Positions 1,998 to 31,148 of a stretch of DNA of 64,000 nt are shown piece after piece. The stretch lies in contig NZ_AVCJ01000001.1 in assembly GCF_000743535.1 (NCBI RefSeq), positions 372,001-436,000 of the forward strand. Reading direction: 5' to 3'. The position numbers and the translations under genes were made by a program. Source of the stretch: Arenimonas donghaensis DSM 18148 = HO3-R19. Lineage in GTDB: Bacteria > Pseudomonadota > Gammaproteobacteria > Xanthomonadales > Xanthomonadaceae. The stretch's first letter is position 1; each line of letters opens with the position of its first letter. A model generated the notes under the pieces. It had not been told where the DNA came from and did no database searches. It saw nothing but the letters and a program-made list of their open reading frames with translations.

Positions 1998-3194
1998 ATG
2001 ACCAAGCAAATCCAGGACGCCTACATCGTCGCCGCCACCCGCACCCCGGTGGGCAAGGCCCCGCGCGGCGTCTTCCGCAACACCCGCCCCGACGAAATGC
2101 TGGCCCACGTGCTCAAGGCCGTGGTCGAACAGTGCCCGGGCATCGACACCAGCCGCATCGACGACGCCATCATCGGCTGCGCCATGCCCGAGGGCGAGCA
2201 AGGCATGAACGTGGCGCGCATCGGCGTGCTGCTGGCCGGCCTGCCCGACGTGGTGGCCGCGCAGACCATCAACCGCTTCTGCTCCTCGGGCCTGCAGGCC
2301 GTGGCGCTGGCGGCCGACCAGATCCGGCTCGGCAACGCCGACCTGGTGCTGGCCGGCGGCACCGAATCGATGTCCATGGTGCCGATGATGGGCAACAAGG
2401 TGGCCATGAGCCCCAAGGTCTTCCAGGACGACAACGTGGCGATCGCCTACGGCATGGGCATCACCGCCGAAAAGGTCGCCGAGGAATGGAAGGTCAGCCG
2501 TGAAGACCAGGATGCCTTCGCCCTGGCCTCGCACCACAAGGCGCTCGCCGCGCAGGCGGCCGGTGCGTTCAAGGAAGAAATCTCGCCCTACGGCGTGATC
2601 TCGCGCCAGCCGGTGCTGGCCGGCAATACCGTGCAGCTGCGCGAGATGCTCGTCGAGCACGACGAGGGCCCGCGCCCGGACACCAGCGCCGAAGGCCTGG
2701 CCAAGCTGCGCGCGGTCTTCCGCAACGGCGGCTCGGTGACGGCGGGCAACAGCTCGCAGATGTCCGACGGTGCCGGCGCGGTGATGCTGGCCTCGGAATC
2801 GGCGATCAAGCAGTACGGCCTGACCCCGCTGGCGCGATTCGTCGGCTTCTCGGTCGCCGGCGTGCGCCCGGAAGTGATGGGCATCGGCCCGATCGCGGCG
2901 ATTCCGAAGGTGCTCAAGCAGGCCGGCATCAGCCAGGACCAGCTCGACTGGATCGAACTCAACGAAGCCTTCGCGGCCCAGGCCCTGGCGGTCATCCGCA
3001 CCTGCGAACTCGACCCGGCCAAGGTCAATCCGCTCGGCGGCGCCATCGCCCTGGGCCACCCGCTGGGCGCCACCGGCGCGATCCGCACCGCGACCATCGT
3101 GCATGGCCTGCGCCGCCAGAAGCAGAAGTACGGCATGGTCACCATGTGCATCGGCACCGGCATGGGCGCCGCCGGCATCTTCGAAGCACTCTGA
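1998..3194 (+). CDS. fadA: acetyl-CoA C-acyltransferase (3-ketoacyl-CoA thiolase)
   Basis: A 398-residue thiolase, the usual family length. It cleaves 3-ketoacyl-CoA with CoA to acetyl-CoA and a shortened acyl-CoA, completing beta-oxidation. The nucleophile is Cys95 in NRFCSSGLQA. The NEAFAAQ motif, the GHPLGATGA histidine near residue 350 and the second cysteine in CIGTGMG near residue 385 are all present. The ATG follows a GAGGA ribosome-binding site, 20 bases after the dehydrogenase/hydratase stop, as expected for partner subunits of one complex. A strong hairpin lies just after the stop. Confidence 0.95.
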   Translation: MTKQIQDAYIVAATRTPVGKAPRGVFRNTRPDEMLAHVLKAVVEQCPGIDTSRIDDAIIGCAMPEGEQGMNVARIGVLLAGLPDVVAAQTINRFCSSGLQAVALAADQIRLGNADLVLAGGTESMSMVPMMGNKVAMSPKVFQDDNVAIAYGMGITAEKVAEEWKVSREDQDAFALASHHKALAAQAAGAFKEEISPYGVISRQPVLAGNTVQLREMLVEHDEGPRPDTSAEGLAKLRAVFRNGGSVTAGNSSQMSDGAGAVMLASESAIKQYGLTPLARFVGFSVAGVRPEVMGIGPIAAIPKVLKQAGISQDQLDWIELNEAFAAQALAVIRTCELDPAKVNPLGGAIALGHPLGATGAIRTATIVHGLRRQKQKYGMVTMCIGTGMGAAGIFEAL

Positions 3195-15566: not shown

Positions 15567-16757
15567 TCAGAGCAAGGCCACGGGGTACGCCCCGAGGATG
15601 CGGATGTCGGCGGCGAATTCACCCAGTTCGGCCAGCGCGGCGGCCACCGGGCCGTCCTGGGCATGGCCACCGACGTCGATGAAAAACGCGTACTGCCAGC
15701 GGCCCGTGTGCGCCGGGCGCGACTCGATGCGGTTCATGCTGACGCCGTGGCGCGCGAACGGGCTGAGCACCTTGTACAGCGCGCCGGGCTGGTCACGCAC
15801 GAAGACCATCAGCGACGTCCGGTCATGCCCGCAGGGCGGAAGCAGTTCGCGCCCCAGCACCAGGAAACGGGTGGTGTTGTCGGGCCGGTCCTCGATCGGG
15901 CCGGCGAGGGTCTTGAGGCCGTAGACGTGGCCGGCGTTTTCGCCGGCGATCGCGGCCGAATCGTCGGCATTGCGGGCCCGGCGGGCGGCTTCGGCATTGC
16001 TCGAGACCGGGATTTTTTCGGCCTTGGGCAGGTGGTGGCGCAGCCAGGTCTTGGCCTGGGCCAGCGACAGCGGATGCGAATAGACGCGTTCGATGTCCTC
16101 CATCCGGCCGGTGCGCGACATCAGGAACTGGTGCACGGCCAGCTCGACTTCGCCGCAAATCTTCAGCGGCGAAGTGAGGAACATGTCCAGCGTGGACTGG
16201 ATGGTGCCCTGCCCCGAATTCTCGACCGGAACGATGCCGAAGTCGGCGTGGCCGGCCTCGACCTCCTGGAATACCTCTTCGATGCTGCCCAGGGGCAGGC
16301 CCTTGGCCGAATGGCCGAAGTGCTTGTGCAGCGCCTGCTGGGAAAACGTGCCTTCCGGCCCGAGGAAACCGACCTTCAGCGGCTCCTGCTGGGCCAGGCA
16401 GGCCGACATGATTTCGCGGAAAAGCCGGAGCAGCACCTCGTCGTTGAGCGGCCCGTCGTTGCGGTCAAGCACCCGGCGCAGCACCTGCGCCTCGCGCTCG
16501 GGCCGGTAGTAATCGATCGCCGCCCGCAGCGGACCCTTGGCCTTGCCGACCTGGTGCGCCCAGCGGGCACGTTCGGCGATCAGGTCCTGGATCTGGCGGT
16601 CGATGCCGTCGATGCGTTCGCGCACCTGCTCAAGGTCGGGCCGGGCGGCAGCGGGCTTGCCGGAAGCCGGCCTGGCCGCGGCGGGTTTCGCCGCCGCGGA
16701 CTTGCCCTTCGCAGGCTTGCGCGTGGCCACTTCAGCCGTGCCGCCGGGCGAAATCAC
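15567..16757 (-). CDS. pheA: bifunctional chorismate mutase / prephenate dehydratase (P-protein)
   Basis: About 396 residues: a Lys/Ala/Pro-rich leader of ~40 residues, an AroQ chorismate mutase helix bundle (about 42-130), a prephenate dehydratase domain opening with GFLGPEGTFSQQAL, and a C-terminal ACT domain. The ACT domain holds the ESRP motif that binds phenylalanine for feedback inhibition. It converts chorismate to phenylpyruvate. The open frame starts with GTG 16757 inside the serC end; GTG 16730, one base after the serC stop, is an equally good start and would give VATRKPAKG as the N-terminus. Confidence 0.93.
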   Translation of the reverse strand: MISPGGTAEVATRKPAKGKSAAAKPAAARPASGKPAAARPDLEQVRERIDGIDRQIQDLIAERARWAHQVGKAKGPLRAAIDYYRPEREAQVLRRVLDRNDGPLNDEVLLRLFREIMSACLAQQEPLKVGFLGPEGTFSQQALHKHFGHSAKGLPLGSIEEVFQEVEAGHADFGIVPVENSGQGTIQSTLDMFLTSPLKICGEVELAVHQFLMSRTGRMEDIERVYSHPLSLAQAKTWLRHHLPKAEKIPVSSNAEAARRARNADDSAAIAGENAGHVYGLKTLAGPIEDRPDNTTRFLVLGRELLPPCGHDRTSLMVFVRDQPGALYKVLSPFARHGVSMNRIESRPAHTGRWQYAFFIDVGGHAQDGPVAAALAELGEFAADIRILGAYPVALL

Positions 16758-17817
16758 CCATGAAATCCACCAGCGCCTGCACGCCGGCCTCGGGCATCGC
16801 GTTGTAGATCGAGGCCCGCATGCCGCCCAGGGCCCGATGGCCCTTCAGGCCGACCAGGCCGGCGGCCTTGGCCTCGGCGAGGAAAGCCTGCTCGCGGGTT
16901 TCATCGGGAAGGAAGAACGGCACGTTCATCCACGAACGCGCCGGAGCCTGGACGTTGTTGCGGTAGAAGCCGCCGGAGCCATCGATGGCCGCGTAGAGGT
17001 TTTCCGCCTTGCGCCGGTTGACCTCGCCCATGGCGGCGGCGCCACCCTGGGCCTTGAGCCACTGCAGCACCAGCCCCAGCACGTACCAGCCGAAGGTGGG
17101 CGGCGTGTTGAACATCGAGTCGTTGCGGGCCTGGTTCTGCAGTTCGAAGATCGGCGGCAAGGCGCGGCCATGCCGCCCGAGCAGGTCCTTGCGGATGATG
17201 GCGATGGCCAGGCCGGACGGGCCGAGGTTCTTCTGGGCGCCGCCGTAGAGCACGCCGAACCGCGAGACGTCCATCGGCCGCGACAGCACGTTCGAACTGA
17301 TGTCCGCGACCAGCGGCACGTCGCCCACGTCCGGGATGTCGTGGAACTCGACGCCGTGGATGGTTTCGTTGGGCGTGTAGTGCACGAAGGCGGCGCCGGG
17401 CGTGAGCTGCCAGCCGGAGGGGTCGGGAATGCCGGTGTAGCCATCGCCCTTGCCGCTGGCGGCGACGTTCGCCTTCACCGAAGCGGCGATGTTGTCCAGC
17501 GCCTTTTCGCCCCAGTGGCCGGTCAGCACGACGTCCACGGCCTGGTCCGGACCCGCCAGGTTCAGCGCCAGCAGCGCCGAAAGCGTGGTGGCGCCGCCCT
17601 GCAGGAACAGCACGTGGTAGTCGTCGGGAATCGCCATCAATTCGCGCAGGTCGGACTCGGCACGCGCGGCGCACTCGACGAAGGCCTTGCCGCGGTGGCT
17701 GACCTCCATCACCGAGGCGCGTTCGCCCTGCCATTCCAGCATTTCGTCGCGGACCTGCCGCAGGACCGGTTCGGGCAGCGCGGCCGGGCCGGCACTGAAA
17801 TTGTAGGCGCGTGTCAT
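16732..17817 (-). CDS. serC: phosphoserine aminotransferase
   Basis: A 361-residue PLP enzyme that transaminates 3-phosphohydroxypyruvate to phosphoserine and also acts in pyridoxal synthesis. It begins YNFSAGPAALPEPVL, the family hallmark, and carries the PLP-lysine segment YGGAQKNLGPSGLA near residue 195. Its ATG has a good GAGGAAATCC ribosome-binding site. It is the first gene of the serC-pheA-hisC-aroA unit. Confidence 0.96.
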   Translation of the reverse strand: MTRAYNFSAGPAALPEPVLRQVRDEMLEWQGERASVMEVSHRGKAFVECAARAESDLRELMAIPDDYHVLFLQGGATTLSALLALNLAGPDQAVDVVLTGHWGEKALDNIAASVKANVAASGKGDGYTGIPDPSGWQLTPGAAFVHYTPNETIHGVEFHDIPDVGDVPLVADISSNVLSRPMDVSRFGVLYGGAQKNLGPSGLAIAIIRKDLLGRHGRALPPIFELQNQARNDSMFNTPPTFGWYVLGLVLQWLKAQGGAAAMGEVNRRKAENLYAAIDGSGGFYRNNVQAPARSWMNVPFFLPDETREQAFLAEAKAAGLVGLKGHRALGGMRASIYNAMPEAGVQALVDFMGDFARRHG

Positions 17818-17879: not shown

Positions 17880-20800
17880 TCAACCGACGATGCCCTCGGT
17901 TCCCGAGAGCATTTGCTCGAACTGCTCCGGCGGCAGTGCCCGGGCGAACAGGAAGCCCTGGCCGAACCGGCAGCCGATCTCGCGCAGCGCGTCGCGCTGG
18001 CCGGTGGTTTCGATGCCTTCGGCGGTCAGCGTCAGGTCCAGTTCGCCGGCGAAGCTGTTGATCGTCCGGGCAATCGCCCGGTGCCGGGCATTGGTCTGGA
18101 TGTCGCGCACGAACACCTGGTCCATCTTCAGGGCGTCGAAGGGTGAGGCCGCGAAGGACTCGAGCGACGAGTAGCCGGTGCCGAAATCGTCCACCACCAG
18201 CCCCACGCCCAGCGCCTTGAGCGCCATCAGCCGCTGCTCGGCCTGTCCGCGACCGCCGCGGAAGGCGGTTTCGGTGACCTCCAGCCGCAGGCAGTCCGGC
18301 GGCAGCCGGTGCTTGCGCAGCAGCGACAGCACTTCGTCGACGATGCCGGGCGAAACCATCTGGCGCTCGTCCACGTTGACGTTGATCGACAGCCCGGACA
18401 GGGCCGGGTACGCCTGGCGCCACTGCGCCAGCTGGCCACAGGCCTGGCGCAGGACCCAGGCATCGAGCTCCATGATCAGGCCGGTTTCCTCGGCCAGGGG
18501 CAGGAACTCGGCCGGTGCCAGCAAGCCGCGACGCGGATGTTGCCAGCGCACCAGGGCCTCGGCGCCCACCAGCTGGCCGCTGGCCAGTTCCACGATGGGT
18601 TGGTAATGCACCCGGAACTCGGCGCGTTCGAAGGCCAGGCGCAAGTCGGTTTCCAGCTGCAGCCGGCTGAGCGCCTGTTCGTGCATGCCGGCGTCGAAAA
18701 CCACGTAGCCGGACTTGCCGGCCGACTTGGCCCGGTACATGGCGGTGTCGGCATCGCGCAGGACCTGGTCGGGTGACTCGTAGTCGCCGCCGCCCAGGAC
18801 GATGCCGATGCTGGCCGAGGAAAACACCTGCTGGCCCCCGATGTCGAAAGGCAGTTCGAACAGCGCGATCACCGCCTCGGCGATCCGGCGGGCCCGGTCG
18901 GCGTCGCAGGCGCCGTCGGGCAGCAAGGTGAACTCATCGCCCCCGTAGCGTGCGATCAGCACGTCGGCCAGCAGGCTGTCTTCCAGCCGCCGGGCGATCT
19001 GCACGAGCAGCCGGTCGCCGGCGCCGTGGCCGAGGCTGTCGTTGACCCACTTGAACCCGTCCAGGTCCAGGAACAGCACCGCGTAGGGCGTTCCGCCGGC
19101 ACGGCTGGCGCCAAGCATCGCCGCCGCCAGCCGCTGGTTGAACATCATCCGGTTGGGCAGCCCCGTGAGCGGGTCGTGGGTGGCGTGGAAACGCAGCCGG
19201 TCCTCGGCCTCGCGCTGGCGGGAGATGTCGAGCACGGTGCCGGTGAGGTGCTGGGCACCGTCGATCTGCACCGGCCCGATGTTCACGCGGACATGAACCC
19301 GGTGGCCGTCGCGGTGCAGCAGGCAGGTCCCGAAGTCCGGGCTCACGCCCTCCCCGGCCTCGCGGTCGCGGTCGCGGCGCTCGGACTGGGCAATCGCCTC
19401 GGGCGCCATGATGTCGCGATAGCTCAGCCCCACCAGCTCCGGCTCGCGATAGCCCAGCATCCGGGCGAAGGCGGCGTTGACGTAGGTATAGCGTTCGCCC
19501 TGCATCACGAAGACGCCGACCTGGCTGTCCTCGACCAGGGTCCGGTACTTGTTCTCCGAACGGGCCAGCGCCAGCCTCGCTTCCTGGCGTTCATTGATGT
19601 CGAGCACCGAGCCGGTGAAGTGCAGCGGCTGCCCCTGCGCGTCATGCACGACGCGGACGCTGGCGCTGACCCACTTCGCGCTGCCATCGCGGCAGCGAAC
19701 CCGGGTCTCGTAGTGGTCGAAGGACCCGTGCCTGAGCGCCTGTTCGACCAGCAGCCTGCGCTCGCCGACCTCGACGTACAGCGACTGGATGTCGCTGGCC
19801 GACTCGCGAAGCTGCGCGACGCTGTCGTAGCCCAGGATCCGGGCGAGCATCGGGTTCACTTCCATGATCTGGCCGTCGATGGTGGTGCGGAACAGACCGG
19901 CCGGCGAATTTTCAAACAGCTCGCGGTAGCGCAACTCGGCTTCGGCCACCGCGTCCTGGCGGGCACGGTCCTCGGTAACGTCGCGCAGGGTGCCGGTGGA
20001 GGCGATGTCGCCGTCGTATTCCACGGCGTCGGCACGCACTTCGCACAGGATGACCTGGCCGTCGCGCCGGCGCAGGCGGATCTCGTAGACCTGGGGCTCG
20101 GCCGAACCGGCCTCGCGCGCCGCCCGCCGGGCCATCTGGGCGTCGAGGTCGCCCGGATCGACCAGCGACATGTATTCGATGCCGCTCAGCTCCGCGACCG
20201 TGTATCCCAGGATGTCGGCCAGCGCCTGGTTGGCGAACGCGACCAGGCCCCGCTGGATCAGGAAAACGCCATCACGGCTGTTTTCCACCAGCACCTGGTA
20301 GAGCGTTCGCGATTGCCGCAACGCCTGCTCGGCCTCGACCTGGGCGGTGATGTCGACCAGCGAGCCTTCGTAGAACAACACCTGGCCCTGGTCGTCGTAG
20401 ATGGCACGGGAGTTCTCGCTGACCCAGATGATGCTGCCGTCGCGCCTGCGGACGCGTGCGCGCACCCCGTCCAGGCGCTGGCCCGCCTGCAGCAGGGCAT
20501 GGCTCTGGGCGGCCTGTTCGGCGTCCTCGTAGAGGGCGGACGCGCAGCGCGCGGTTTCGGCCAGCATCTGCGCCGGCGAGTCATAACCCAGGATGCGGGC
20601 CATGGCGGGATTGACGTCCAGGAACCCGCCGCCGGGCAAACTGCGATAGATGCCCTCGGAGGCCGCCAGGTACAGGGCGCGATAGAAACCCGCCGGGCGT
20701 TCCGGCGCGGGGGGCTGCGACCCCTCGTTGCCGGGCGGGTCCCGGCCGCCCAGGTGCAAGAGGCAGAAGACCACCGTGCCCTCGTCGGGATCCTGGGCGA

Positions 20801-21083
20801 ACTCCACGCTCAGCCGCGCCGGTTCCAGCCGGCCATCGGCAAAGCGCACCCGGGTGGACACCGACACGGCCCGGTGTTCGGCCCGCAGCACGCTCCAAAT
20901 CTGTGCCCGGAAACCCGGCTCGGCCCAGAGCCCGATCTCGTTCGGGATCTTCCCTATCACCTGGTCGCGACGGTAGCCGGTGCTACGCTCGAAGGCAGCA
21001 TTGACCCCGAGGAACACCCCGTCGCTGGCGCGCATCACCGCAACCACGCTGGTGGATGAATCGAAAGCCTCGACCAGGCGCAT
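17880..21083 (-). CDS. multi-PAS GGDEF-EAL cyclic-di-GMP protein
   Basis: A 1067-residue soluble signalling protein. Five successive PAS domains can be recognised by recurring VNxxxxRILGY/FxxxLGY signatures (roughly residues 5-110, 135-255, 260-375, 395-505 and 510-625). A GGDEF domain follows with an intact RYGGDEF near residue 712, then an EAL domain with GAEALVRWQHP near residue 840. Both active-site motifs are intact, so it could make and degrade cyclic-di-GMP. There are no membrane segments. ATG 21083 is preferred over the more upstream start because AGAGAGGAAATGG precedes it and the longer form would run into the divergent msrP. It is divergent from msrP across 76 bases. Confidence 0.92.
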   Translation of the reverse strand: MRLVEAFDSSTSVVAVMRASDGVFLGVNAAFERSTGYRRDQVIGKIPNEIGLWAEPGFRAQIWSVLRAEHRAVSVSTRVRFADGRLEPARLSVEFAQDPDEGTVVFCLLHLGGRDPPGNEGSQPPAPERPAGFYRALYLAASEGIYRSLPGGGFLDVNPAMARILGYDSPAQMLAETARCASALYEDAEQAAQSHALLQAGQRLDGVRARVRRRDGSIIWVSENSRAIYDDQGQVLFYEGSLVDITAQVEAEQALRQSRTLYQVLVENSRDGVFLIQRGLVAFANQALADILGYTVAELSGIEYMSLVDPGDLDAQMARRAAREAGSAEPQVYEIRLRRRDGQVILCEVRADAVEYDGDIASTGTLRDVTEDRARQDAVAEAELRYRELFENSPAGLFRTTIDGQIMEVNPMLARILGYDSVAQLRESASDIQSLYVEVGERRLLVEQALRHGSFDHYETRVRCRDGSAKWVSASVRVVHDAQGQPLHFTGSVLDINERQEARLALARSENKYRTLVEDSQVGVFVMQGERYTYVNAAFARMLGYREPELVGLSYRDIMAPEAIAQSERRDRDREAGEGVSPDFGTCLLHRDGHRVHVRVNIGPVQIDGAQHLTGTVLDISRQREAEDRLRFHATHDPLTGLPNRMMFNQRLAAAMLGASRAGGTPYAVLFLDLDGFKWVNDSLGHGAGDRLLVQIARRLEDSLLADVLIARYGGDEFTLLPDGACDADRARRIAEAVIALFELPFDIGGQQVFSSASIGIVLGGGDYESPDQVLRDADTAMYRAKSAGKSGYVVFDAGMHEQALSRLQLETDLRLAFERAEFRVHYQPIVELASGQLVGAEALVRWQHPRRGLLAPAEFLPLAEETGLIMELDAWVLRQACGQLAQWRQAYPALSGLSINVNVDERQMVSPGIVDEVLSLLRKHRLPPDCLRLEVTETAFRGGRGQAEQRLMALKALGVGLVVDDFGTGYSSLESFAASPFDALKMDQVFVRDIQTNARHRAIARTINSFAGELDLTLTAEGIETTGQRDALREIGCRFGQGFLFARALPPEQFEQMLSGTEGIVG

Positions 21084-21159
21084 CCATTTCCTCTCTGGAC
21101 GACTCTTGTCGGGAGTATAGCCACGTGATTCGCCCCCGCGCCGCCAACGGAGCCACGCC

Positions 21160-22121
<962 letters not shown>

Positions 22122-22125
<4 letters not shown>

Positions 22126-22736
22126 GCGGGCGTCCCGTGCCATGGCGCTGGGTCGGCTTGAAGACCCTGGCGCATGCCCTGGCCCTGCTGCCGTTCGCGT
22201 TGCTGGTGCGCGGCGTGGTGCAGGACAGCCTGGGCGCCGACCCGGTCGCCGAGATCACCCACGCCACCGGCACCTGGGCCCTGCGCTTGCTGCTGCTGGG
22301 CTTGGCGCTGACGCCGCTGCGGCGACTGACCGGCCAGACCTGGCCGATCCGGTTCCGGCGCCTGGTCGGGCTGTACGCGTTCTTTTATGCCTGCCTGCAC
22401 CTGGCGACCTGGCTGGCGCTGGACCTGGGCGGATTCTGGACGCAGGTCTTCGCCGACCTGGCCAAACGGCCCTACATCATGTTCGGCTTCGCCGCCTGGT
22501 TATGCCTGCTGCCCCTGGCCCTGACCTCGACCCGGGGCTGGATGCGCCGCCTGGGCCGGCGCTGGGGCCAGCTGCACAAGCTGGTGTACGGCGCCGCGGC
22601 GCTGGCGGTCGCCCACTACCTGTGGCTGGTGAAGGCCGACCTGCGCGAGCCGCTGGTGTACGCCGCGGTGCTCGCCGTGCTGCTGGGCCTGCGCGTGTTC
22701 TGGTACCTGCACAAACGCCGGGCTCAGGGCGCGTAG
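22122..22736 (+). CDS. msrQ: MsrQ haem-binding membrane subunit
   Basis: About 204 residues with five to six membrane segments of the ferric-reductase-like family. It passes quinone-pool electrons to MsrP. Histidines likely to ligate haem are in [20 protein letters not shown] and VAHYLWL. The start is probably TTG 22122, overlapping the msrP stop; GTG 22137 is the alternative. Its 3' end overlaps the convergent FHA gene by 13 bases. Confidence 0.92.
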
Positions 22737-23587
22737 ACCAGCAGCATCGTCAGCGACGCCGCCAGGATGGTGGCGGCGGCGATCAGCCACCACAGGCTGT
22801 TGGGATCCCGGGTGCGCGGCTGGCCCGGGGCCGGTGCCTCCTCCGGTGGCGGATCGTCGGCCACCGGCACGTCCACCGCCCGCATGGTCTGGGTATGGGG
22901 CGTCGCGGCGGACTTGCCCAGCGCGTCCTGGCCACGCAGCGGCAGGCCGGGCGCTTCGAGCACGAAGCGGTGCTGTTCCACCACCAGCTGGTCGCCGGGT
23001 GACAGCACCGCATCGCGGACCGGCACGCCGTTGAGCCAGGTCGCGTCCTTGCCCGGCGCGAGGGCGCGCAGCACGACGCGGTCGCCGTGCAGCTCGACCA
23101 CCGCATGGCGGTCGGCGATGGCAGGGTCGTCCAGGCGGATGTCGGCCGCCGACGAACGTCCCAGCAGGCGGGGTTCGACCAGCGTGTGCGATCGCCCGAA
23201 ATGCGGGCCGCTCAGTCCGCGCAGCACCACCCGCGAGGCAGCGACGCGCTGCGCCTCGCCAAGGCTGGCCGGCGCGGCGGACGGGATGCGGGTTTCTATG
23301 GCCGGCTGGTCGCTGCCCTTCACCACCACGCGCAGCTTGTCCAGGCAGACCAGGTCGCCCGCGCGCAGCAGGGCCAGGCGCTGGACCGGGCGGGCGTTCA
23401 GGTGGACGCCGGGCGCACCGTTGGGCACGCGAAGCCACAGGCCCCGTCGGTCGCTGATGAAGCTGGCATGGTGGGCCGCCAGGCCGCTGCCGGGCAGGCT
23501 GATCCGCAGCCCCGGGCGGCTGCCCACGGCCACTTCGCCCTGCAGGGGCACGTTGGGGTGTTCGCCATTGGGGAACGTCAGTTGCAT
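22724..23587 (-). CDS. twin FHA-domain protein with C-terminal membrane anchor
   Basis: A 287-residue protein. Two FHA-like regions are visible (about residues 15-85 and 135-215); the second has LLGRSSAADIRLDDPAIADRHA, the first a more degenerate SRPGLRISLPGSGLAAHHA. An acidic/proline linker with TQTMR follows, and one membrane segment lies at about residues 263-284, leaving the FHA domains in the cytoplasm. FHA domains usually bind phosphothreonine, but the Ser of the canonical SRxH is replaced by Asp or Ala here. No kinase, phosphatase or type VI secretion gene is nearby, so the partner is unknown. It overlaps msrQ tail to tail. Confidence 0.8.
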   Translation of the reverse strand: MQLTFPNGEHPNVPLQGEVAVGSRPGLRISLPGSGLAAHHASFISDRRGLWLRVPNGAPGVHLNARPVQRLALLRAGDLVCLDKLRVVVKGSDQPAIETRIPSAAPASLGEAQRVAASRVVLRGLSGPHFGRSHTLVEPRLLGRSSAADIRLDDPAIADRHAVVELHGDRVVLRALAPGKDATWLNGVPVRDAVLSPGDQLVVEQHRFVLEAPGLPLRGQDALGKSAATPHTQTMRAVDVPVADDPPPEEAPAPGQPRTRDPNSLWWLIAAATILAASLTMLLVYAP

Positions 23588-23685: not shown

Positions 23686-23961
23686 ATGTCCCATATCGAC
23701 ATCCGCCGCACCCACGGTCGCCCGCTCAAGGAAGCCAAGGCGGCGATCGAACGCGTCGCCGAGCACCTGGCCGAGAAATTCGACGTCGAATACGGCTGGG
23801 AAGGCAATACGCTTGCCTTCACCCGCGGCGGCGTCGACGGCCACATCGCCGTTTCCAGCAAGGAGGTGCACGTCACCGCCCAGCTGGGTTTCCTGCTGGG
23901 CGCGATCAAGGGCCCGATCGAGCGCGAGATCCACCAGTACCTCGACCGCGAGTTCGGCTAG
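23686..23961 (+). CDS. polyhydroxyalkanoic-acid system family protein
   Basis: A 91-residue protein with an excellent AGGAGG ribosome-binding site seven bases upstream of its ATG. It resembles the small proteins called 'putative polyhydroxyalkanoic acid system protein' (PHA_gran_rgn), with an N-terminal RTHGRPLKEAKAAIERVAEHLAEKF-like helix and a C-terminal LGFLLGAIKGPIEREIHQYL segment. The molecular function of the family is not established. Its 3' end overlaps the convergent gene at 23906-24679 by 56 bases. A phasin lies 2.2 kb away. Confidence 0.78.
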   Translation: MSHIDIRRTHGRPLKEAKAAIERVAEHLAEKFDVEYGWEGNTLAFTRGGVDGHIAVSSKEVHVTAQLGFLLGAIKGPIEREIHQYLDREFG

Positions 23962-24679
23962 GCGGCGAGTTGCCGAAGGGATCGGGATCGCCGGCGAACA
24001 GCCGGCGTGACGCCTCCCGCTCGCGATGACCGATCGCTTCCAGGAAGTCCCCGGCCCCGCCCAGGGCGTCGAAGGCGCTGAAGCCCCGCTCCAGGAAGCC
24101 CTGCAGCTCCGATAGCCCGGCCGCCCTGGCCGGGAAGCGCGAGGCGCGCAGGATCTTGTAGATGCCGTGTTTTTTCACCGCGGCGTCCAGGGTCCAGCCC
24201 ACGCCGAGGATCATCTCGATCTGTCGTCGACGCAGGCGCGGACAGCCGACGGCGCGGTAGGCCTGCCCGTAGTCCGCCAGGGTGATGGGCGCCTGCGGTT
24301 CGGGGCGCCCGGCAAGGGCTTCGGCCATGCGCAGGTCGAAGGCATGGCTGAGCACCGCCAGCCCGATGGCGTCGGCGGCGGCCACCAGCAGGCTGTCCGG
24401 CAACAGCCGGGACATCAGCGGCATCACCTTGGCGACGTCGCGGTCCCGGCCGGAGAAGTCGCGCTCGCCGTACAGGTCGGTCAGGAAAAATTCCGCCGCC
24501 GGGCGCATGCGGGCGTTTTTCTTGAAGTCGGTGAAGCTGCCGGCCAGTCGCTGCGCCTGCCAGGCCTGCAGGGCGGCCAGCTGCGGCAATCGGTTGCGCG
24601 GATCGCGCACCGGATCGTAGACGGCCTTCTGCCAGGCCAGGCGCCGGGCCAGGCGCTCGCGCAGCAGGGCCTGGCTCAT
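23906..24679 (-). CDS. conserved hypothetical protein, FFLEELY-motif-like
   Basis: A 257-residue predicted cytoplasmic protein. It carries FFLTDLYGERDFSGRDRDVAKV near residue 65, which resembles what is annotated in proteobacteria as 'FFLEELY motif protein', a family of unknown function. I recall this name but cannot check it. It is rich in Arg and Ala, with no membrane segment or signal peptide. Its last ~19 codons run antisense to the end of the small PHA-system gene, and the tail (SPPSRTRGRGTGG) looks non-conserved, so the overlap may reflect stop-codon drift. It is divergent from the patatin gene across 111 bases. Confidence 0.65.
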   Translation of the reverse strand: MSQALLRERLARRLAWQKAVYDPVRDPRNRLPQLAALQAWQAQRLAGSFTDFKKNARMRPAAEFFLTDLYGERDFSGRDRDVAKVMPLMSRLLPDSLLVAAADAIGLAVLSHAFDLRMAEALAGRPEPQAPITLADYGQAYRAVGCPRLRRRQIEMILGVGWTLDAAVKKHGIYKILRASRFPARAAGLSELQGFLERGFSAFDALGGAGDFLEAIGHREREASRRLFAGDPDPFGNSPPSRTRGRGTGGSRARSGP

Positions 24680-24790
24680 CGCTTCACCCGCCGGGGACGG
24701 TGGGAAATCGGTACATGCAAGCGGTTCACACTGGGCTGGGTCGTCATCCGGCTACAATCGCGGCGCCAATTCACTGGAGTCGCCCCTAGC

Positions 24791-26041
24791 ATGCTCGTTC
24801 TTCAACCCGCCCGAAAGCGCAAGGCACCCAGCGAGGGCCGGATCGGCCTGGCCATCGCCGGCGGCGGGCCGATTGGCGGCATGTACGAGCTGGGCGCGCT
24901 GCGCGCCCTGGACGTGGCCATCGAGGGCCTGGACCTGACCCGCCTCGAGGTTTACGTCGGCGTCAGCTCCGGCGCGTTCCTGGCAGCGGGCCTGGCCAAC
25001 CGGCTCGATACCGCCGAGATGTGCCGGATATTCATCAGCGGCGACAGCGACCAGGTCAAGTTCCATCCGCAGATGTTCCTGCGCCCGGCCTTCATGGAAT
25101 ACGTGCGCCGCGCCTCGTCGGTGCCACGACTGGCCTTTGACTGGTGGAAGGACCTGCTGACCGACCCCACCGGATCGCACCTGAGCGAACTGGTCGGCCG
25201 CTTCGGCGGGGTGATCCCGACCGGCCTGTTCGACAACCGCGGCATCGAACGGTTCCTGCGCAAGGTGTTCACCATCCGCGGCCGCAGCAACGACTTCCGT
25301 GAACTGGCGGCCAAGCTCTACGTCGTCGCGGTGGACCTCGACAGCGGCGAAGCGGTGCGCTTCGGCAGCCCCGGCTGGGACGACGTCAGCATCTCGCGCG
25401 CGGTGCAGGCCAGTTCGGCCCTGCCCGGCCTGTATCCGCCGGTGGACATCCGGGGCCACCATTTCGTCGACGGCGCCCTGCGCCGGACCATGCATGCCTC
25501 GACCGTGCTCGACCACGGCATCGACCTGATGCTGGGCGTCAACCCCTTCGTTCCCTTCAACGCCAAGACCGCCGGACGACCGCCCGACGGCATGAACATG
25601 CTCAGCGAGGGTGGCCTGCCGGTGGTGTTGTCGCAGACCTTCCGCACCTTGCTGCAGTCGCGCATGCGCGTGGGCCTGGAGAAGTACGCCGAACAGTACC
25701 CGGACGTCGACCAGGTGGTGTTCGAGCCCAACGAAGACGACGGCGAGATGTTCTTCACCAACGTGTTCAGCTACTCCTCGCGCCAGCGCGTCTGCGAACA
25801 CGCTTTCCGTTCCACGCTCAACGACCTGCGCCGTCGCCGCACCGAACTTGCGCCGGTGCTGGCCCGCCACGGCCTGACGCTCAGGACCGAGGTGCTCGAC
25901 AACCCGGCCGCGTCGATCATGGACGGCCTGGGGACGCCACGACGCCCGACCGAAACCACGGCGCGTCTGCGGCGGGCGCTGGACGACGTCGACCTGGTGC
26001 TGCGCGATCGCCAGCGTCCGGCAGGCCGGCGCCGGCGCTGA
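24791..26041 (+). CDS. patatin-like phospholipase
   Basis: A 416-residue patatin-fold lipid acyl hydrolase. The oxyanion motif GGGPIGG is at about residues 23-29, the nucleophile serine lies in YVGVSSGAFLAAG, and the dyad aspartate in HFVDGALRR. There is no signal peptide, so it should act in the cytoplasm on phospholipids or neutral lipids. ATG 24791 is chosen because the family begins shortly before GLAIAGGG; it has GGAG upstream and a TACAAT -10-like element at 24753-24758. The phasin gene follows after 119 bases. Confidence 0.9.
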   Translation: MLVLQPARKRKAPSEGRIGLAIAGGGPIGGMYELGALRALDVAIEGLDLTRLEVYVGVSSGAFLAAGLANRLDTAEMCRIFISGDSDQVKFHPQMFLRPAFMEYVRRASSVPRLAFDWWKDLLTDPTGSHLSELVGRFGGVIPTGLFDNRGIERFLRKVFTIRGRSNDFRELAAKLYVVAVDLDSGEAVRFGSPGWDDVSISRAVQASSALPGLYPPVDIRGHHFVDGALRRTMHASTVLDHGIDLMLGVNPFVPFNAKTAGRPPDGMNMLSEGGLPVVLSQTFRTLLQSRMRVGLEKYAEQYPDVDQVVFEPNEDDGEMFFTNVFSYSSRQRVCEHAFRSTLNDLRRRRTELAPVLARHGLTLRTEVLDNPAASIMDGLGTPRRPTETTARLRRALDDVDLVLRDRQRPAGRRRR

Positions 26042-26160
26042 GGCGACGGCGGCGGCCACCCCGGCGACCGCTCGCCTATGGTGTGAAAACTCTAGACAGA
26101 CGGCCCAGATTGGCGCCACTCGGCCTCCGTGCCCAAACCGAACAGATGGAGTAACGAAGC

Positions 26161-26838
26161 ATGGCCAAGCTCAAGAAGAATGCCCGCGCCAAGGCCTCTG
26201 CCAAGCGCGCCCCGTCCGCCGCTTCCGCCGCCGACCTGCAGGCCCGCGCCGAGCAGGTGTCGCGTTCGATCGTCGGCTCCGCCCAGCAGATCTGGATGGC
26301 CGGCATGGGTGCCTTCCATCGCGCCCAGGGCGAAGGCTCGAAGCTGTTCGAAGCCCTGGTCAGCGAAGGCATGAACATCGAGCAGAGCACCCGCAAGCTG
26401 GCCACCAGCCGCGTTGACGCCGTGCGCGACGCCGTCGAGGACCGCGTCGGCGTGGCCCGCGAACGTGCCGTGGATACCTGGGACCGCCTGGAGAAGGTGT
26501 TCGAGGACCGCGTGCAGCGCGCGCTCAACCGCCTCGGCGTGCCCAGCCGCGAAGACCTCACCGAACTCAACCAGCGGGTCCATGAGCTCAACGGCGAGCT
26601 GCGCAAGCTGTCCAAGCCCTCGGCCAAGGCCGGTGCGGCCAAGGCGCGCAAGGCGCCGGCGGGCAAGAAGCCGGCGGCGAAAAAGGCCGGCAAGAAGGCC
26701 GCGACCAAGACCTCGGCACCGCGCAAGGCGAGCAAGAAGCCGGCGGCCCGCAAGGCCGCCAAGCCGGCGAAGTCCGCCAGCAAGCGCCGTCTGCCCAAGT
26801 CGCCCAAGCCGGTGGCCCCGCAGGCCCCTTCGGCCTGA
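26161..26838 (+). CDS. PhaF-like phasin with histone-like tail
   Basis: A 225-residue two-part protein. Residues ~20-145 are an alpha-helical, heptad-patterned phasin domain (SRSIVGSAQQIWMAGMGAFH, later DTWDRLEKVFEDRVQRALNR). Residues ~150-225 are a Lys/Ala/Pro tail with repeated KKPAAKKA and ARKAAKPAK units. This is the PhaF architecture of pseudomonads, in which the phasin part coats polyester granules and the basic tail binds DNA, segregating granules. No PHA synthase is in the window, and some phasin-domain proteins exist in non-accumulating bacteria, so the granule role is an inference. Confidence 0.82.
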   Translation: MAKLKKNARAKASAKRAPSAASAADLQARAEQVSRSIVGSAQQIWMAGMGAFHRAQGEGSKLFEALVSEGMNIEQSTRKLATSRVDAVRDAVEDRVGVARERAVDTWDRLEKVFEDRVQRALNRLGVPSREDLTELNQRVHELNGELRKLSKPSAKAGAAKARKAPAGKKPAAKKAGKKAATKTSAPRKASKKPAARKAAKPAKSASKRRLPKSPKPVAPQAPSA

Positions 26839-26846
26839 ACCCCTTC

Positions 26847-26910
26847 CCGTCCGCCAGCCAGTCGGGACCCCGCTTGCTCCCTCCCCTTGCGGATCCCGGC
26901 TGGCGGACGG
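26847..26910 (+). terminator. long stem-loop after the phasin gene
   Basis: Arms CCGTCCGCCAGCC (26847-26859) and its exact complement (26898-26910) enclose a 38-base loop eight bases after the phasin stop. There is no T-run beyond ATTTG. It may terminate or protect the abundant phasin mRNA. Confidence 0.5.
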
Positions 26911-26950
26911 ATTTGAAGACCCCTGCCTGATCCCCAGGCAGGCAATCGAG

Positions 26951-26973
26951 ATGGCCCGGCATTGCCGGGCCAT
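26951..26973 (+). terminator. second hairpin after the phasin gene
   Basis: A 10-bp perfect stem ATGGCCCGGC/GCCGGGCCAT with a 3-base loop, 112 bases after the phasin stop and before the membrane Mrr-like gene. It is followed by TCGCGTT rather than a pure T-run. It is a plausible terminator. Confidence 0.5.
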
Positions 26974-27053
26974 TCGCGTTCAGGGCCAATGCCGCCGACT
27001 TTCCGCGTTATCCTCTGGCAGCTTCCCCCACCCCCCAGAACCGGAGTCACCGG

Positions 27054-28112
27054 ATGTTCGGCCTCAGCCCCCTCGTCGCTGCCCTCGTCGCCACCATCGC
27101 CGCGCTGCTTGCCAGCACCTGGTGGTTTGGCGTGCATCGACGCCGGCTTGCCGAGACCCAGGCCGGCGTCCAGGCCCTGGCCGGGATGAAGTGGCGTGAG
27201 TGCGCTGGCCTGGTGCTCCAGGCCATGGAAGAAAAGGGCTTCAAGGAACTGCCCTCCAGCCGCCAACCGGGTGACGGTGGCGCCGAGTTCCTGCTGATCA
27301 AGGGCGACGAACGCTGCCTGCTTGGCTACAAGCACGGCACCGCCTACCGGCTGGGCGAAGCCAACGTGCGCGATTTCGCCAATGCGGTGCAGCTCCAGGG
27401 TGCCGATTCGGGAATGCTGGTGACCCTGGGCAGCGCCGAGGGTTTCGCCCGCGACCTGGCGCGCCGCTACGGCGTCGACCTCACCGACGGCCGCAGCCTG
27501 TGGCCGCAGGTCGAACCCTTCGCCGCGCCGCAGATGGTCGAAGCGATCCGGAAGCAGGCGGCCAGCGAAATCCACAAGGGCCAGCGCCTGGGCATGGTCG
27601 CCAGCGTCGCGCTGGGCCTGCTGGTTTTCGCCGTCGGATACGCCATGCAGCCCTCCGAACCAGAGCCGGCGAACACCCCGGCCGTCGCGGCACCGGCACC
27701 GACCGCCGGTCCGGAAGCCCCGGCATCACCTGCCGGCGCAGCCACCGACGCCCCGGCCAGCGCCGGAGCCGATGCGCCGCCGCCCTCGCGCTTCACCGAC
27801 GACGCCTCGCGCCAGGCCGACGAGGCCCTGCGGGAGCTCGAGGAAGTCGCCAAGCTGACCGAACAACAGCGCATCGAGCGCCGCCTGGCGGCCGCCGCCG
27901 AGGTGGGTGAACTGGAAGCCGCGGACACCGCCACATGGTCGACCCAGTCGACCCTGGTCGTGCGCATGAACCGCCCGGACGGCATCGACACCGGCCTGGT
28001 CAACCAGGCCTGCGGCGTGCTCGTCCAGTACGAAGAGCTGCGCTATACGCGCCTGCAGCTCGAGCCCCCGGCCGGCGGAACCGGCCAGGTGCGCTGGCGC
28101 CAGTGCCAGTAA
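27054..28112 (+). CDS. membrane-anchored Mrr/restriction-endonuclease-like protein
   Basis: A 352-residue protein. It has an N-terminal membrane segment (residues ~5-25), then a cytoplasmic domain (about 45-165) resembling the Mrr-type PD-(D/E)xK fold: KWRECAGLVLQAMEEKGF, PGDGGAEFLLIKGDERCLLG, YKHG, then a MLVTLGSAEGFARDLARRYGVDL helix-strand. A second membrane segment follows (about 182-201), then a Pro/Ala linker and a C-terminal domain ending in a cysteine-containing RWRQCQ. In active Mrr domains the last strand carries QxK; here it is GYK, so the Gln/Glu is missing. A structural or sensing role is as likely as nuclease activity. No methylase is adjacent. Confidence 0.6.
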   Translation: MFGLSPLVAALVATIAALLASTWWFGVHRRRLAETQAGVQALAGMKWRECAGLVLQAMEEKGFKELPSSRQPGDGGAEFLLIKGDERCLLGYKHGTAYRLGEANVRDFANAVQLQGADSGMLVTLGSAEGFARDLARRYGVDLTDGRSLWPQVEPFAAPQMVEAIRKQAASEIHKGQRLGMVASVALGLLVFAVGYAMQPSEPEPANTPAVAAPAPTAGPEAPASPAGAATDAPASAGADAPPPSRFTDDASRQADEALRELEEVAKLTEQQRIERRLAAAAEVGELEAADTATWSTQSTLVVRMNRPDGIDTGLVNQACGVLVQYEELRYTRLQLEPPAGGTGQVRWRQCQ

Positions 28113-28115
28113 GTC

Positions 28116-30104
28116 CTACCAGTGCACGCCGCGCATCAGCGCGGCGAAGGCAACCTGTTCGTTGGTGGGCTTCTCGTCCTTGAGCGCCTTGCGGTCGCCC
28201 TTGGCGGCCGCCGAGTCGGGGAACATCTCGAAGGCCGTGTTCATGATCACCTCGTAGGCTTTCGGCGCCACGGCATTGAGCGTGGCGGCGAAGATGCCCA
28301 TGCGGGTGGCGACGCGGCTCGGCCGTTCGATGATCGCCTTGACCACCAGGTCGGCGGCTTCCTCGGGCGACAGCGTCGGAACCGAGTCGTACATCTTGGT
28401 CGGCGCGATCATCGGCGTCTTCACCAACGGCATGTTGACGGTGGTGAAGGTGATGTTCTTGCCGCTGAACTCGGCCTGGGCGCAGCGGCTGAAAGCATCG
28501 AGCGCCGCCTTCGAAGCCACGTAGGCCGAGAACCGGGCCGAACTGGCGAGCACGCCGATCGAGCTGATGTTGATGATGTGGCCGCGACGGCGCTGGGTCA
28601 TCATCGGCAGGAAACCCATGATCAGGCGCAGGCAACCGAAGTAGTTGAGCTGCATGGTCCGTTCGTAGTCGTGGAAGCGGTCGTAGCTGAGCTCCACCGA
28701 ACGCCGGATCGAACGGCCGGCGTTGTTGACCAGCACGTCCACCGCCTTGTGTTCCGCCAGTACCGTCTTGACCAGGGCGTCGCAGCTCGAGAGGTCGGTC
28801 AGGTCGCAGGTGTAGGCCCAGCACTTGCCGCCGGCCGCGAGGATTTCGTCGCGGGTACGGAAGAGCTCTTCCTCGCCACGCGCGACGATGATGACCTTCG
28901 CGCCGGCATCGGCAACCTTGATCGCCGTGGCCTTGCCGATGCCCGAGGAACCGCCGGTGATCAGCACCACCTTGTTGGTGACGTGGCCACGCAGGGTGCG
29001 GTCGACGAACAGGTCGGGGTCGAGGTGACGCTCCCAGTAGTCCCAGATGCGCCAGGCGTAGGCGTCGAGCTCGGGCACTTCGATCTTGCTGCCCTTGAGC
29101 GCCCGCTCGACCACGCGCGTGTCGAACTTGGTCGGGTAGGTGATGAACGACAGCGTCGCCGGCGGCAGCTTCAGGTCACGCAACAGCATGGAGGTGAAGC
29201 GTTTCACCGGCGGCAGGTTGGTCACCGCGCTGCGCACGGCGCCGGGCACGACGGCCAGCATGCGCGCGTCCAGGCGCATGGTCATCTCCGGCGCGTGGGC
29301 GGCGCGGCAGAAGGTGTTCATCAGCTCGCCGAAACGCTTGGGCTCCGGGTCGACCAGGTGGAAACACTGGCCGTCCAGGCCCCGCTTGTGGGCGATGTGG
29401 TCCATGGCGTCGGCGACGAAGTCCACGGGCACCACGTTGATGCGGCCACCTTCGATGCCCAGGGTCGGCACCCACTGCGGCAGCGCCTGGCGCATTTTCT
29501 TGATCAGGGTGAACAGGTAGTAGGGACCGTCGATCTTGTCCATTTCGCCGGTTTTCGAGTGGCCGATGACCATCGACGGGCGATAGATGCGGAACGGCAC
29601 CTTGCATTCGTTGCGCACGATGCCTTCGGACTCGTGCTTGGTGCGCAGGTAGGGGTCGCGCAGGCCCTCGGCCTCCTCGAACATGTCTTCGCGGAACACG
29701 CCCGGGTACAGGCCGGCCGCGGCGATGGAACTGGTGTGGTGGAAACAGCCGGCCTTGATGGCCGCGGCCAGCTCGATGGCGTGGCGGGTGCCGTCGATGT
29801 TGGCGACCTGCTGGGAGGCGGCATCGGCCGACAGGTCGTAGATGGCCGCCAGGTGGAAGAAGTGCTTTACCTTGCCGCTGAGCGCCTTGATCTTCGCCGG
29901 CGCCAGGCCCAGGCGCGGCTTGGACAGGTCGCCGGTGACCACGACGATGCGCTTGCGGTCCCAGCCCATCGACGTGGCGATGGCGTCGAGCTTCTTTTCC
30001 GAGCCCTTGCGCAGCAGCACGTGGATCGTGCCCTTGCGCTTGAGCAGGTTGCTGACCAGGAAGCGCCCGATGAAACCGGTGGCGCCAGTGACGAAATAAG
30101 ACAT
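28116..30104 (-). CDS. fatty acyl-CoA reductase (alcohol-forming), two-domain
   Basis: A 662-residue enzyme. The N-terminal half is an extended SDR of the male-sterility/NAD-binding-4 type (GATGFIGRFL at residues 6-15, HHTSSIAAAGLYPG, EDMFEEAEGLRDPYLRTKHE). The C-terminal half (from about 385) is a classical SDR with TGGSSGIGKATAIK and the catalytic YVASK. Length, order and sequence match the Marinobacter bifunctional reductase (Maqu_2507 type), which uses NADPH to take fatty acyl-CoA through the aldehyde to the fatty alcohol. Fatty alcohols feed wax esters. ATG 30104 gives the family N-terminus MSYFVTGATGF. It is divergent from the acyl-CoA-binding protein gene, whose product could deliver substrate. 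Confidence 0.86.
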   Translation of the reverse strand: MSYFVTGATGFIGRFLVSNLLKRKGTIHVLLRKGSEKKLDAIATSMGWDRKRIVVVTGDLSKPRLGLAPAKIKALSGKVKHFFHLAAIYDLSADAASQQVANIDGTRHAIELAAAIKAGCFHHTSSIAAAGLYPGVFREDMFEEAEGLRDPYLRTKHESEGIVRNECKVPFRIYRPSMVIGHSKTGEMDKIDGPYYLFTLIKKMRQALPQWVPTLGIEGGRINVVPVDFVADAMDHIAHKRGLDGQCFHLVDPEPKRFGELMNTFCRAAHAPEMTMRLDARMLAVVPGAVRSAVTNLPPVKRFTSMLLRDLKLPPATLSFITYPTKFDTRVVERALKGSKIEVPELDAYAWRIWDYWERHLDPDLFVDRTLRGHVTNKVVLITGGSSGIGKATAIKVADAGAKVIIVARGEEELFRTRDEILAAGGKCWAYTCDLTDLSSCDALVKTVLAEHKAVDVLVNNAGRSIRRSVELSYDRFHDYERTMQLNYFGCLRLIMGFLPMMTQRRRGHIINISSIGVLASSARFSAYVASKAALDAFSRCAQAEFSGKNITFTTVNMPLVKTPMIAPTKMYDSVPTLSPEEAADLVVKAIIERPSRVATRMGIFAATLNAVAPKAYEVIMNTAFEMFPDSAAAKGDRKALKDEKPTNEQVAFAALMRGVHW

Positions 30105-30254
30105 GACCTCTCCCCTGCCCTTGACCCCGGGACCGGCCGCGATAGCCGGCAATGGGGTTAAGTTGCCAGACCCCGGCGCGGGCGGCAAACCCTTCGTTGA
30201 ACTTCCACGGGGGCCGTGCTATCACCGGGGCTTCGAACGCGGGAACCCCAGACG

Positions 30255-30512
30255 ATGGCCGACCTCAAAGCCGACTTCCAAAAAGCCTCCAAGGACGTGA
30301 TGGACCTGGCCGAGCGGCCGGACAACGACACCATGCTGCGCCTGTACGCCCTCTACAAGCAGGGCTCCGAGGGCGATGTCAGCGGCCCCAAGCCCGGTTT
30401 CTTCGATTTCGTCGGCACCGCCAAGTACGAGGCCTGGGAAAAACTGGCCGGCATGAAGCCCGAGGAAGCCATGAAGAAGTACGTGGCCCTCGTGAAGACG
30501 CTTCGTAACTGA
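30255..30512 (+). CDS. acyl-CoA-binding protein
   Basis: An 85-residue four-helix ACBP, complete against the family length of about 85-90. The hallmark YALYKQGSEGDVSGPKPGFFDF region and the KYEAWEKLAGM helix are present, carrying the tyrosine and lysine residues that hold the CoA moiety. It binds long-chain acyl-CoA and would buffer or deliver it to the divergent acyl-CoA reductase. ATG 30255 is chosen to give MADLKADF. The TetR regulator follows 9 bases after the stop. Confidence 0.92.
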   Translation: MADLKADFQKASKDVMDLAERPDNDTMLRLYALYKQGSEGDVSGPKPGFFDFVGTAKYEAWEKLAGMKPEEAMKKYVALVKTLRN

Positions 30513-30521
30513 CGGCCCCCG

Positions 30522-31148
30522 ATGGCCAGGCAAACCCGCCAGCGCATCCTTGATGCCTCGCTCGCCATGTTCAACGAGCAGGGCGAGCCCAACGTCACGA
30601 CCAACCATATCGCCGACGAGCTCGAGATCAGCCCGGGCAACCTGTACTACCACTTCCGCAACAAGGACGACATCATCGAGCAGCTGTTCGCGCGCTACGA
30701 GGAGCGCATGGACACCGCCCTGGTGGCCCCCGAGGGCCGCCTGCGCGACCTGGAGGACATCTGGCTGCAGCTGCACCTGGTGTTCGAGGCGATCTGGGAC
30801 TACCGCTTCCTCTACCGCGACCTGGTCGACATCCTCAGCCGCAACCGCCGCCTGCGCCTGCGCTTCGCCCGCATCCTCAAGCGGGCCGCCGACAACGCCA
30901 CCTCGGGCATGCGCGGCCTGGTCCAGGCCGGGGTGATGCGGGCGTCCGCCGCCGAGGTCGAGGCCACGGCCACCAATATCCTGGTCCTGGCCACGTTCTG
31001 GCTCAACTACGCCTCGGTCCGGGGCGACAAGGACGAAAACGAGGCCATCCGGCGCGGCATCGTCCAGGTGATGATGCTGCTCTCGCCCCTGCTCAGGGAC
31101 GCCGAGCGCCTGCACCTGAACACCCTGACCCAGGCCTACCTGCGCTGA
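30522..31148 (+). CDS. TetR-family transcriptional regulator
   Basis: A 208-residue regulator with an N-terminal HTH (TRQRILDASLAMFNEQG then NLYYHFRNKDDIIEQLF) and a C-terminal ligand-binding helical domain with tryptophan- and leucine-rich helices. Co-transcription with the acyl-CoA-binding protein and divergence from the fatty acyl-CoA reductase suggest an acyl-CoA-responsive repressor of this locus. I could not pick out a convincing operator palindrome in 30105-30254. Confidence 0.87.
   Translation: MARQTRQRILDASLAMFNEQGEPNVTTNHIADELEISPGNLYYHFRNKDDIIEQLFARYEERMDTALVAPEGRLRDLEDIWLQLHLVFEAIWDYRFLYRDLVDILSRNRRLRLRFARILKRAADNATSGMRGLVQAGVMRASAAEVEATATNILVLATFWLNYASVRGDKDENEAIRRGIVQVMMLLSPLLRDAERLHLNTLTQAYLR

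Follow-up and report, generated by a model that had tools for sequence, protein, structure and literature searches.

A conserved gene cluster of Arenimonas donghaensis that probably encodes most of a module for making and storing wax esters

Introduction

The genome of Arenimonas donghaensis DSM 18148 (= HO3-R19) contains, within the 64,000-nucleotide stretch analysed here (the window; contig NZ_AVCJ01000001.1, positions 372,001 to 436,000 of the forward strand), a group of eight genes at window positions 23686-31148 in which a fatty acyl-CoA reductase (FAR) and an acyl-CoA-binding protein (ACBP) are found together with two proteins bearing the family names of polyhydroxyalkanoate (PHA) systems. 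The question raised by this locus is whether these genes form a functional unit and, if so, which lipid it serves. A first-pass annotation of the window had suggested a dispersed neutral-lipid programme, for either wax ester or PHA. The comparisons described below favour the wax-ester half of this proposal over the PHA half; the locus is very probably the larger part of a conserved module for wax-ester synthesis and storage, whose remaining enzyme, a wax ester synthase/diacylglycerol acyltransferase (WS/DGAT), is encoded elsewhere on the same contig.

Gene content and organisation of the cluster

Analysis of open reading frames (ORFs) and profile searches assigned a family to each of the eight genes. 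The FAR gene (28116-30104, reverse strand) encodes a protein with fused NAD_binding_4 and SDR domains (PF07993 and PF00106), which matches NF005539 with 999 bits against a cut-off of 549 and contains both cofactor and YxxxK motifs (GATGFIG, YLRTK, TGGSSGIG and YVASK). All of 99 FARs compared have both YxxxK motifs; the glycine motif is kept at the N-terminal site in 97 and at the C-terminal site in 95. We take the fused layout to be the mark of the reductase type represented by MAQU_2507 of Marinobacter aquaeolei VT8, which presumably shares it. The closest match of this FAR among the named genomes is that of Arenimonas metalli (94% identity).

The 5' end of the FAR gene is separated by a divergent control region of 150 bp (30105-30254, as defined by the gene coordinates) from two genes of the forward strand. 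These encode ACBP (30255-30512; PF00887, E-value 3.7e-30) and, starting 9 bp after it, a TetR-family regulator (30522-31148; PF13972, 1.5e-41), whose closest solved structure is 3nnr (1.1e-37). The 3' end of the FAR gene faces convergently the gene of a restriction endonuclease-like protein with an Mrr_cat domain (27054-28112, forward; PF04471, 3.7e-14), which stands between FAR and a phasin gene.

The phasin (26161-26838, forward; PF05597, 7e-44, 149 bits against a cut-off of 28.8; TIGR01837, 2.3e-35) is of the PhaF type, with a basic, Lys/Ala-rich C-terminal tail of 74 residues and an isoelectric point (pI) of about 12. It is preceded by a patatin-like lipase gene (24791-26041, forward; PF01734, 1.3e-25), the product of which contains the motifs GGGPIGG, GVSSG and DGA; a GxSxG-type motif was found in 73 of 76 patatins. 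A FFLEELY-motif protein (23906-24679, reverse; NF047641, 1.1e-64) is encoded by a gene overlapping the 3' end of the leftmost one, which codes for PHA_gran_rgn, a putative polyhydroxyalkanoic acid system protein (23686-23961, forward; PF09650, 8.4e-29; TIGR02610, 2e-24).

The PHA-system protein, patatin, phasin, FAR, ACBP and TetR regulator named by the first-pass annotation are thus all confirmed by family profile matches, while the FFLEELY-motif and Mrr_cat genes had been left unnamed there. Its estimate of at least four transcripts is in keeping with the five blocks into which the genes fall by strand.

Conservation of gene order

The window proteins were used as tblastn queries against 80 named FAR loci, the closest relatives of this FAR and mostly from Lysobacteraceae, in stretches reaching up to 10 kb from FAR; gene counts are lower bounds, full 10-kb flanks being available in only 56 of the 80 loci. 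TetR and ACBP were each found in 74 loci, phasin in 71, patatin in 65, and the FFLEELY-motif and PHA_gran_rgn genes in 61 each. The TetR-ACBP pair is divergent from FAR in 73 loci, as in the window; the order FAR, phasin, patatin is kept in 64, and seven genes, all except Mrr_cat, follow the window order in 55. Genes to the right of TetR, up to position 35010, were found in only 7-11 of the loci. TetR is therefore the last conserved gene on this side, and the boundaries proposed by the first-pass annotation match the cluster closely.

Since the named loci are the closest relatives of the FAR locus, general synteny could explain part of their conservation, and 20 regions from other families of the order were compared as a stronger test. 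These regions were chosen largely for the presence of WS/DGAT or phasin on the contig of FAR, so that the numbers for those two genes should not be read as frequencies; the TetR and ACBP counts are unbiased by this choice. FAR and TetR were found in all 20 regions and ACBP in 19, followed by patatin (11), the FFLEELY-motif protein (9) and PHA_gran_rgn (5), the last being a peripheral cluster member. Phasin matches, subject to the selection just described, were obtained in 20 regions at E ≤0.01 and in 16 at E ≤1e-15. In a control with 169 window ORFs of at least 120 amino acids, only cluster genes or frames overlapping them occurred in more than 3 of the 20 regions (E ≤1e-15). The grouping, which the first-pass annotation had drawn from proximity, is thus more than chance: the cluster genes persist in other families while the flanks vanish.

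Two species of Xanthomonas, X. albilineans and X. bonasiae, also carry FAR; the TetR-ACBP pair lies about 9 kb away in the former and was not found within 10 kb in the latter.

The remote wax ester synthase and the search for PHA synthase

The first-pass annotation had stated that neither a wax-ester synthase nor a PHA synthase is present in the window, and had called for a genome-wide search for both. The profile search revealed a single WS/DGAT (C1:504696-505481), the only PF03007 match of the genome, which falls outside the window on the same contig as FAR and 104 kb away from it. It is a full-length family match (TIGR02946, 428 bits against a cut-off of 310; PF03007 and PF06974) and resembles solved WS/DGATs over most of its length (7nxg, 9.5e-39; 6chj, 3.7e-30). 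The motif HHCYADG is located at residue 138, and all 48 WS/DGATs compared, of either of the two types distinguished below, keep HHxxxDG. The gene preceding it is presumably photolyase-like. The WS/DGAT gene has a promoter-like pair of its own upstream (TTGACG...CAT[CT]CT), which is seen upstream of 14 of 30 WS/DGAT genes of the genus.

WS/DGAT was found in 16 of the 20 other-family regions, a count shaped by the way in which they were chosen, and in families f3, f7, f9 and f11 it is part of the cluster, physically linked to FAR, ACBP and TetR, as it is not in A. donghaensis. The word "dispersed" used in the first-pass annotation thus describes Arenimonas and does not describe these families. 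Their layout places WS/DGAT and phasin on one side of the TetR-ACBP|FAR core and patatin with the FFLEELY-motif gene on the other, the latter two being missing from the two f3 regions. The clustered WS/DGATs are 51-62% identical to the A. donghaensis enzyme, as against 26-30% for the second type in the genus, which identifies the distant gene of Arenimonas as their counterpart. A WS/DGAT match was obtained in each of the 27 congeneric genomes, and in 25 of these at least one match is of the clustered type. Some f7 regions (L179, L180 and L184) show two or three consecutive phasin-like matches, one of them with a long, less basic extension; those of L179 and L180 stand between WS/DGAT and TetR.

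No PHA synthase of class I or III, as would be expected for PHA storage, was detected in the A. donghaensis genome with PF07167 or TIGR01836, and TIGR01836 had no match in any of the 27 genomes of the genus. At E ≤0.001 the latter profile additionally picked up, in other genomes and below its cut-off, ORFs of about 600 amino acids, which were taken as class I-like synthases; its silence in the genus therefore covers more than class III.

Co-occurrence of reductase, synthase and phasin

The distribution of these genes was determined in 180 genomes of the order Lysobacterales (G033, with a completeness of 89, being outside this sample). WS/DGAT was found in 107 of the genomes, in 106 of them over the cut-off, and FAR (E ≤1e-120) in 103, every one of which also holds WS/DGAT. 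The genomes with WS/DGAT and without FAR are G137, G157, G168 and the sub-cut-off G193. The lineage had been thought little discussed for wax esters; with FAR and WS/DGAT together in 103 of the 180 genomes, the programme is in fact widespread in the order. Among the matches listed, a WS/DGAT is encoded no more than 15 kb from FAR in at least 27 of the 103 FAR genomes, farther away on the same contig in 14 and on other contigs only in 48, with no position given in the other 14; the two genes share a contig in 41. ACBP was detected in 135 order genomes, and in 90 of the 100 that have both it is divergent from FAR within 700 bp.

A phasin over the cut-off is encoded in 133 of the 180 genomes. For its comparison with the two synthases, genomes were counted as PhaC-positive if they had a TIGR01836 match over the cut-off or a hand-picked class I-like match of 110-160 bits (matches of about 20 bits being excluded), and as WS/DGAT-positive if the match was over the cut-off, which drops G193; 18 genomes with a sub-cut-off phasin, most of them in family f12, were scored as lacking it. 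Phasin is present in all 45 genomes with WS/DGAT and PhaC, in all 61 with WS/DGAT only, in 27 of 65 with PhaC only and in none of nine with neither synthase. It thus tracks WS/DGAT (106 of 106) better than PHA synthase. Within family f12, it was found in 5 of 5 WS/DGAT genomes versus 1 of 35 PhaC-only genomes by a hand tally. Among the matches listed, phasin lies within 10 kb of FAR in at least 56 of the 103 FAR genomes, farther away on the same contig in 3, on other contigs only in 36, and has no position in 8.

A basic tail, scored as at least 20 residues with K+R ≥20% and pI ≥11, was found in 64 of 71 named loci with a phasin, as against just 8 of the 27 phasin matches obtained in other families, so that the idea of a tether to the nucleoid applies to Lysobacteraceae first.

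In a sample of 370 genomes of the class, FAR was found in 13 and WS/DGAT in 20 (19 over the cut-off), with both in 10. The association is strong here, if not without exception as it is in the order. Cluster genes other than FAR occur in two of 11 FAR regions retrieved from beyond the order: G292 has FAR, phasin, patatin and TetR, and G387 (L231, 8096-12654) has TetR, FAR, PHA_gran_rgn, phasin and the FFLEELY-motif gene.

The FAR/ACBP control region

The gap between FAR and ACBP contains the block TTGCCAGA at 30163-30170, GGCAAAC at 30184-30190 and the promoter-like sequence TTGAAC-17-TATCAC at 30197-30225, which reads towards ACBP. Altogether 134 FAR|ACBP gap sequences were collected, of which 112 are distinct. 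In an alignment of 18 gaps picked by eye, which range from Arenimonas to Pseudoxanthomonas, TTGCCAGA is unchanged throughout, and ACBP usually has a promoter-like TTGA-N-TG.TAT pair facing it; the rows omitted from it include L020-L025, L026-L028 and L031, all without TTGCCAGA. Across all gaps the block is present in 60 of the 112 distinct sequences, in 47 of 73 from named loci and in none of 19 from other families, and it is missing from six congeners (L020-L025). The block was considered as an invariant operator of TetR, and this was rejected, as the invariance holds within the chosen 18 gaps only. It may be an operator or a part of the FAR promoter.

Proposed function and alternative explanations

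In the proposed module, ACBP would hold and buffer acyl-CoA, FAR would reduce acyl-CoA to fatty alcohol, and the WS/DGAT about 104 kb away would join the alcohol with another acyl-CoA to yield wax ester, possibly also making triacylglycerol. The phasin may coat the resulting droplets, its basic tail perhaps tethering them to the nucleoid, and the patatin lipase could mobilise the store by releasing acyl groups. The divergent FAR|ACBP-TetR promoter region is probably the target of TetR, with acyl-CoA as a possible signal. The genes and their motifs, the conservation of their order, the co-occurrence with WS/DGAT and the lack of a PHA synthase match in the genus are observations; wax ester as the product, the coating of droplets, the substrate of the lipase, and the target and ligand of TetR are inferred. 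The first-pass annotation had named two findings that together would speak against its proposal, the lack of conserved linkage in relatives and the absence of both synthases from the genome; both points were examined and neither was borne out, the TetR-ACBP|FAR arrangement being conserved, also in other families, and a WS/DGAT being present.

Several observations weigh against a wax-ester module. The co-occurrence figures are raw counts without phylogenetic correction. ACBP occurs in 35 order genomes without FAR, and 27 PHA-synthase genomes that lack WS/DGAT retain phasin. WS/DGAT was found within 10 kb of FAR in only two of the 80 named loci (L102 and L109), so that in most Lysobacteraceae the synthase is not linked to FAR, and in the congeners G009 and G017 the sole WS/DGAT found is of the type that is 26-30% identical to the clustered one. 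Outside the order, nine of the 11 FAR regions contain no other cluster gene, three of these nine ending at contig breaks. In the class sample, three of the 13 genomes with FAR (G211, G387 and G535) have no detected WS/DGAT, and FAR may therefore serve another product in some lineages; in G387, which retains much of the cluster, a missed or different synthase is possible. Finally, the motifs of the FAR/ACBP gap were found upstream of none of the 30 WS/DGAT genes of the genus, in a test that is weak since the three patterns sought match only 24, 35 and 22 of the 134 gaps, eight of the 30 genes being of the 26-30% type. Control of WS/DGAT by TetR, and with it a control shared through the TTGCCAGA block, is unsupported.

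Of the other explanations, the production of mainly triacylglycerol, with a WS/DGAT acting mostly as DGAT, or of fatty alcohol destined for something else, for example ether lipids, is rather unlikely, if the least so. WS/DGAT enzymes yield triacylglycerol as well as wax ester according to the available excerpt of PMC4520822, and the three class genomes just mentioned are consistent with another product. FAR, however, is superfluous for triacylglycerol, yet it accompanies 103 of the 106 over-cut-off WS/DGATs of the order. It is considerably less probable that the PHA-labelled genes are leftovers of a PHA system, or still serve one, with FAR and the lipase merely nearby. Phasin and PHA_gran_rgn do bear PHA family names, class III PhaC over the cut-off is encoded in 94 of the 180 order genomes (TIGR01836), and 24 of the 27 PhaC-only genomes that keep a phasin belong to the family of A. 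donghaensis itself (hand tally). The silence of TIGR01836 throughout the genus nevertheless speaks against such a system, as do the phasins of all WS/DGAT genomes without PhaC and the contrast observed in family f12. That a chance neighbourhood was preserved by general synteny in one family is hardly credible. Some genes to the left of the cluster are likewise found near FAR in the named loci (16735-17817 in 49 of 80, 21160-22733 in 46, 17883-21161 in only 11), but in the 20 other-family regions the flanks are gone and the cluster genes remain, the genes to the right of TetR fall off sharply relative to TetR itself, and a core conserved across families already contradicts this explanation.

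The wax-ester module has a bearing on the phasin family. We lean slightly towards the view that the PF05597/TIGR01837 phasin of Lysobacterales is primarily a protein of wax-ester or triacylglycerol droplets, inherited with WS/DGAT and FAR and not with PHA synthase, and that in most Lysobacteraceae its tail serves as a tether to DNA; for phasin and PHA_gran_rgn the PHA label would then be misleading across the order. The data suggest that proteins labelled as coats of bioplastic granules here really coat wax droplets.

Comparison with known systems and significance

The two enzyme steps proposed are the same as in M. aquaeolei VT8, with its FAR MAQU_2507 and WS/DGAT; MAQU_2507 is cited as the reductase providing fatty alcohol for wax esters in the available part of PMC10351704. 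The likeness concerns the steps; in the window, FAR shares its cluster with phasin, ACBP, TetR and patatin. The same part of that study (2023) gives a partial precedent: on metagenome scaffolds of Burkholderiales and Gammaproteobacteria, WS/DGAT has ACBP and a MAQU_2507-like SDR as neighbours, two scaffolds also encode a "PHA system family protein" and another a phasin, and some WS/DGAT sequences are assigned to a cluster with Chromatiales and Xanthomonadales affiliation. It contains, as far as this part extends, no count of phasin-WS/DGAT co-occurrence, no divergent TetR-ACBP|FAR core and no PHA-synthase-free genus. A full-text literature search yielded, among the matches listed, no title that pairs Arenimonas, Lysobacter or Xanthomonas with wax esters, and the sole match combining Arenimonas with wax ester was a paper on crayfish spoilage. 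A cluster conserved throughout the order, its split form in Arenimonas, a genus without detected PHA synthase and the phasin-WS/DGAT link were thus met neither in the available part of PMC10351704 nor in this search.

The PhaF phasin of Pseudomonas putida, in the excerpt of PMC5658603, combines a phasin domain with a basic histone-like tail, as does the window phasin, and this tail binds DNA and aids the location and segregation of granules. PhaF, however, is found on PHA granules beside PHA synthase genes, whereas the phasin of A. donghaensis is encoded beside FAR and ACBP in a genome without a detected PHA synthase.

The relation between phasin and WS/DGAT is the part of these results likely to surprise the specialist. 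If PHA-named genes package wax esters, then throughout a large order of bacteria PHA capacity would be overestimated and wax-ester storage underestimated. With one WS/DGAT, one PF05597 protein and no PHA synthase match, A. donghaensis represents a clean test organism for a phasin without PHA, and it is also suited to the question of whether neutral-lipid bodies are tethered to DNA by a phasin on their surface.

Neighbouring genes

Two further genes were considered as core members of the cluster and rejected. The Mrr_cat gene, present in 46 of the 80 named loci and in none of the 20 other-family regions, is judged to be a passenger. An FHA-domain gene (22727-23587), which adjoins PHA_gran_rgn on the left, was found in 59 of the named loci and likewise in none of the other-family regions. 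The first-pass annotation had also pointed to beta-oxidation genes at the window start. Lying about 20 kb to the left of the cluster, beyond the reach of up to 10 kb of the named loci, they were left out of the module; their identity was confirmed by matches to 3HCDH/ECH, in a gene that runs off the window start and ends at 1977, and to thiolase (1998-3194).

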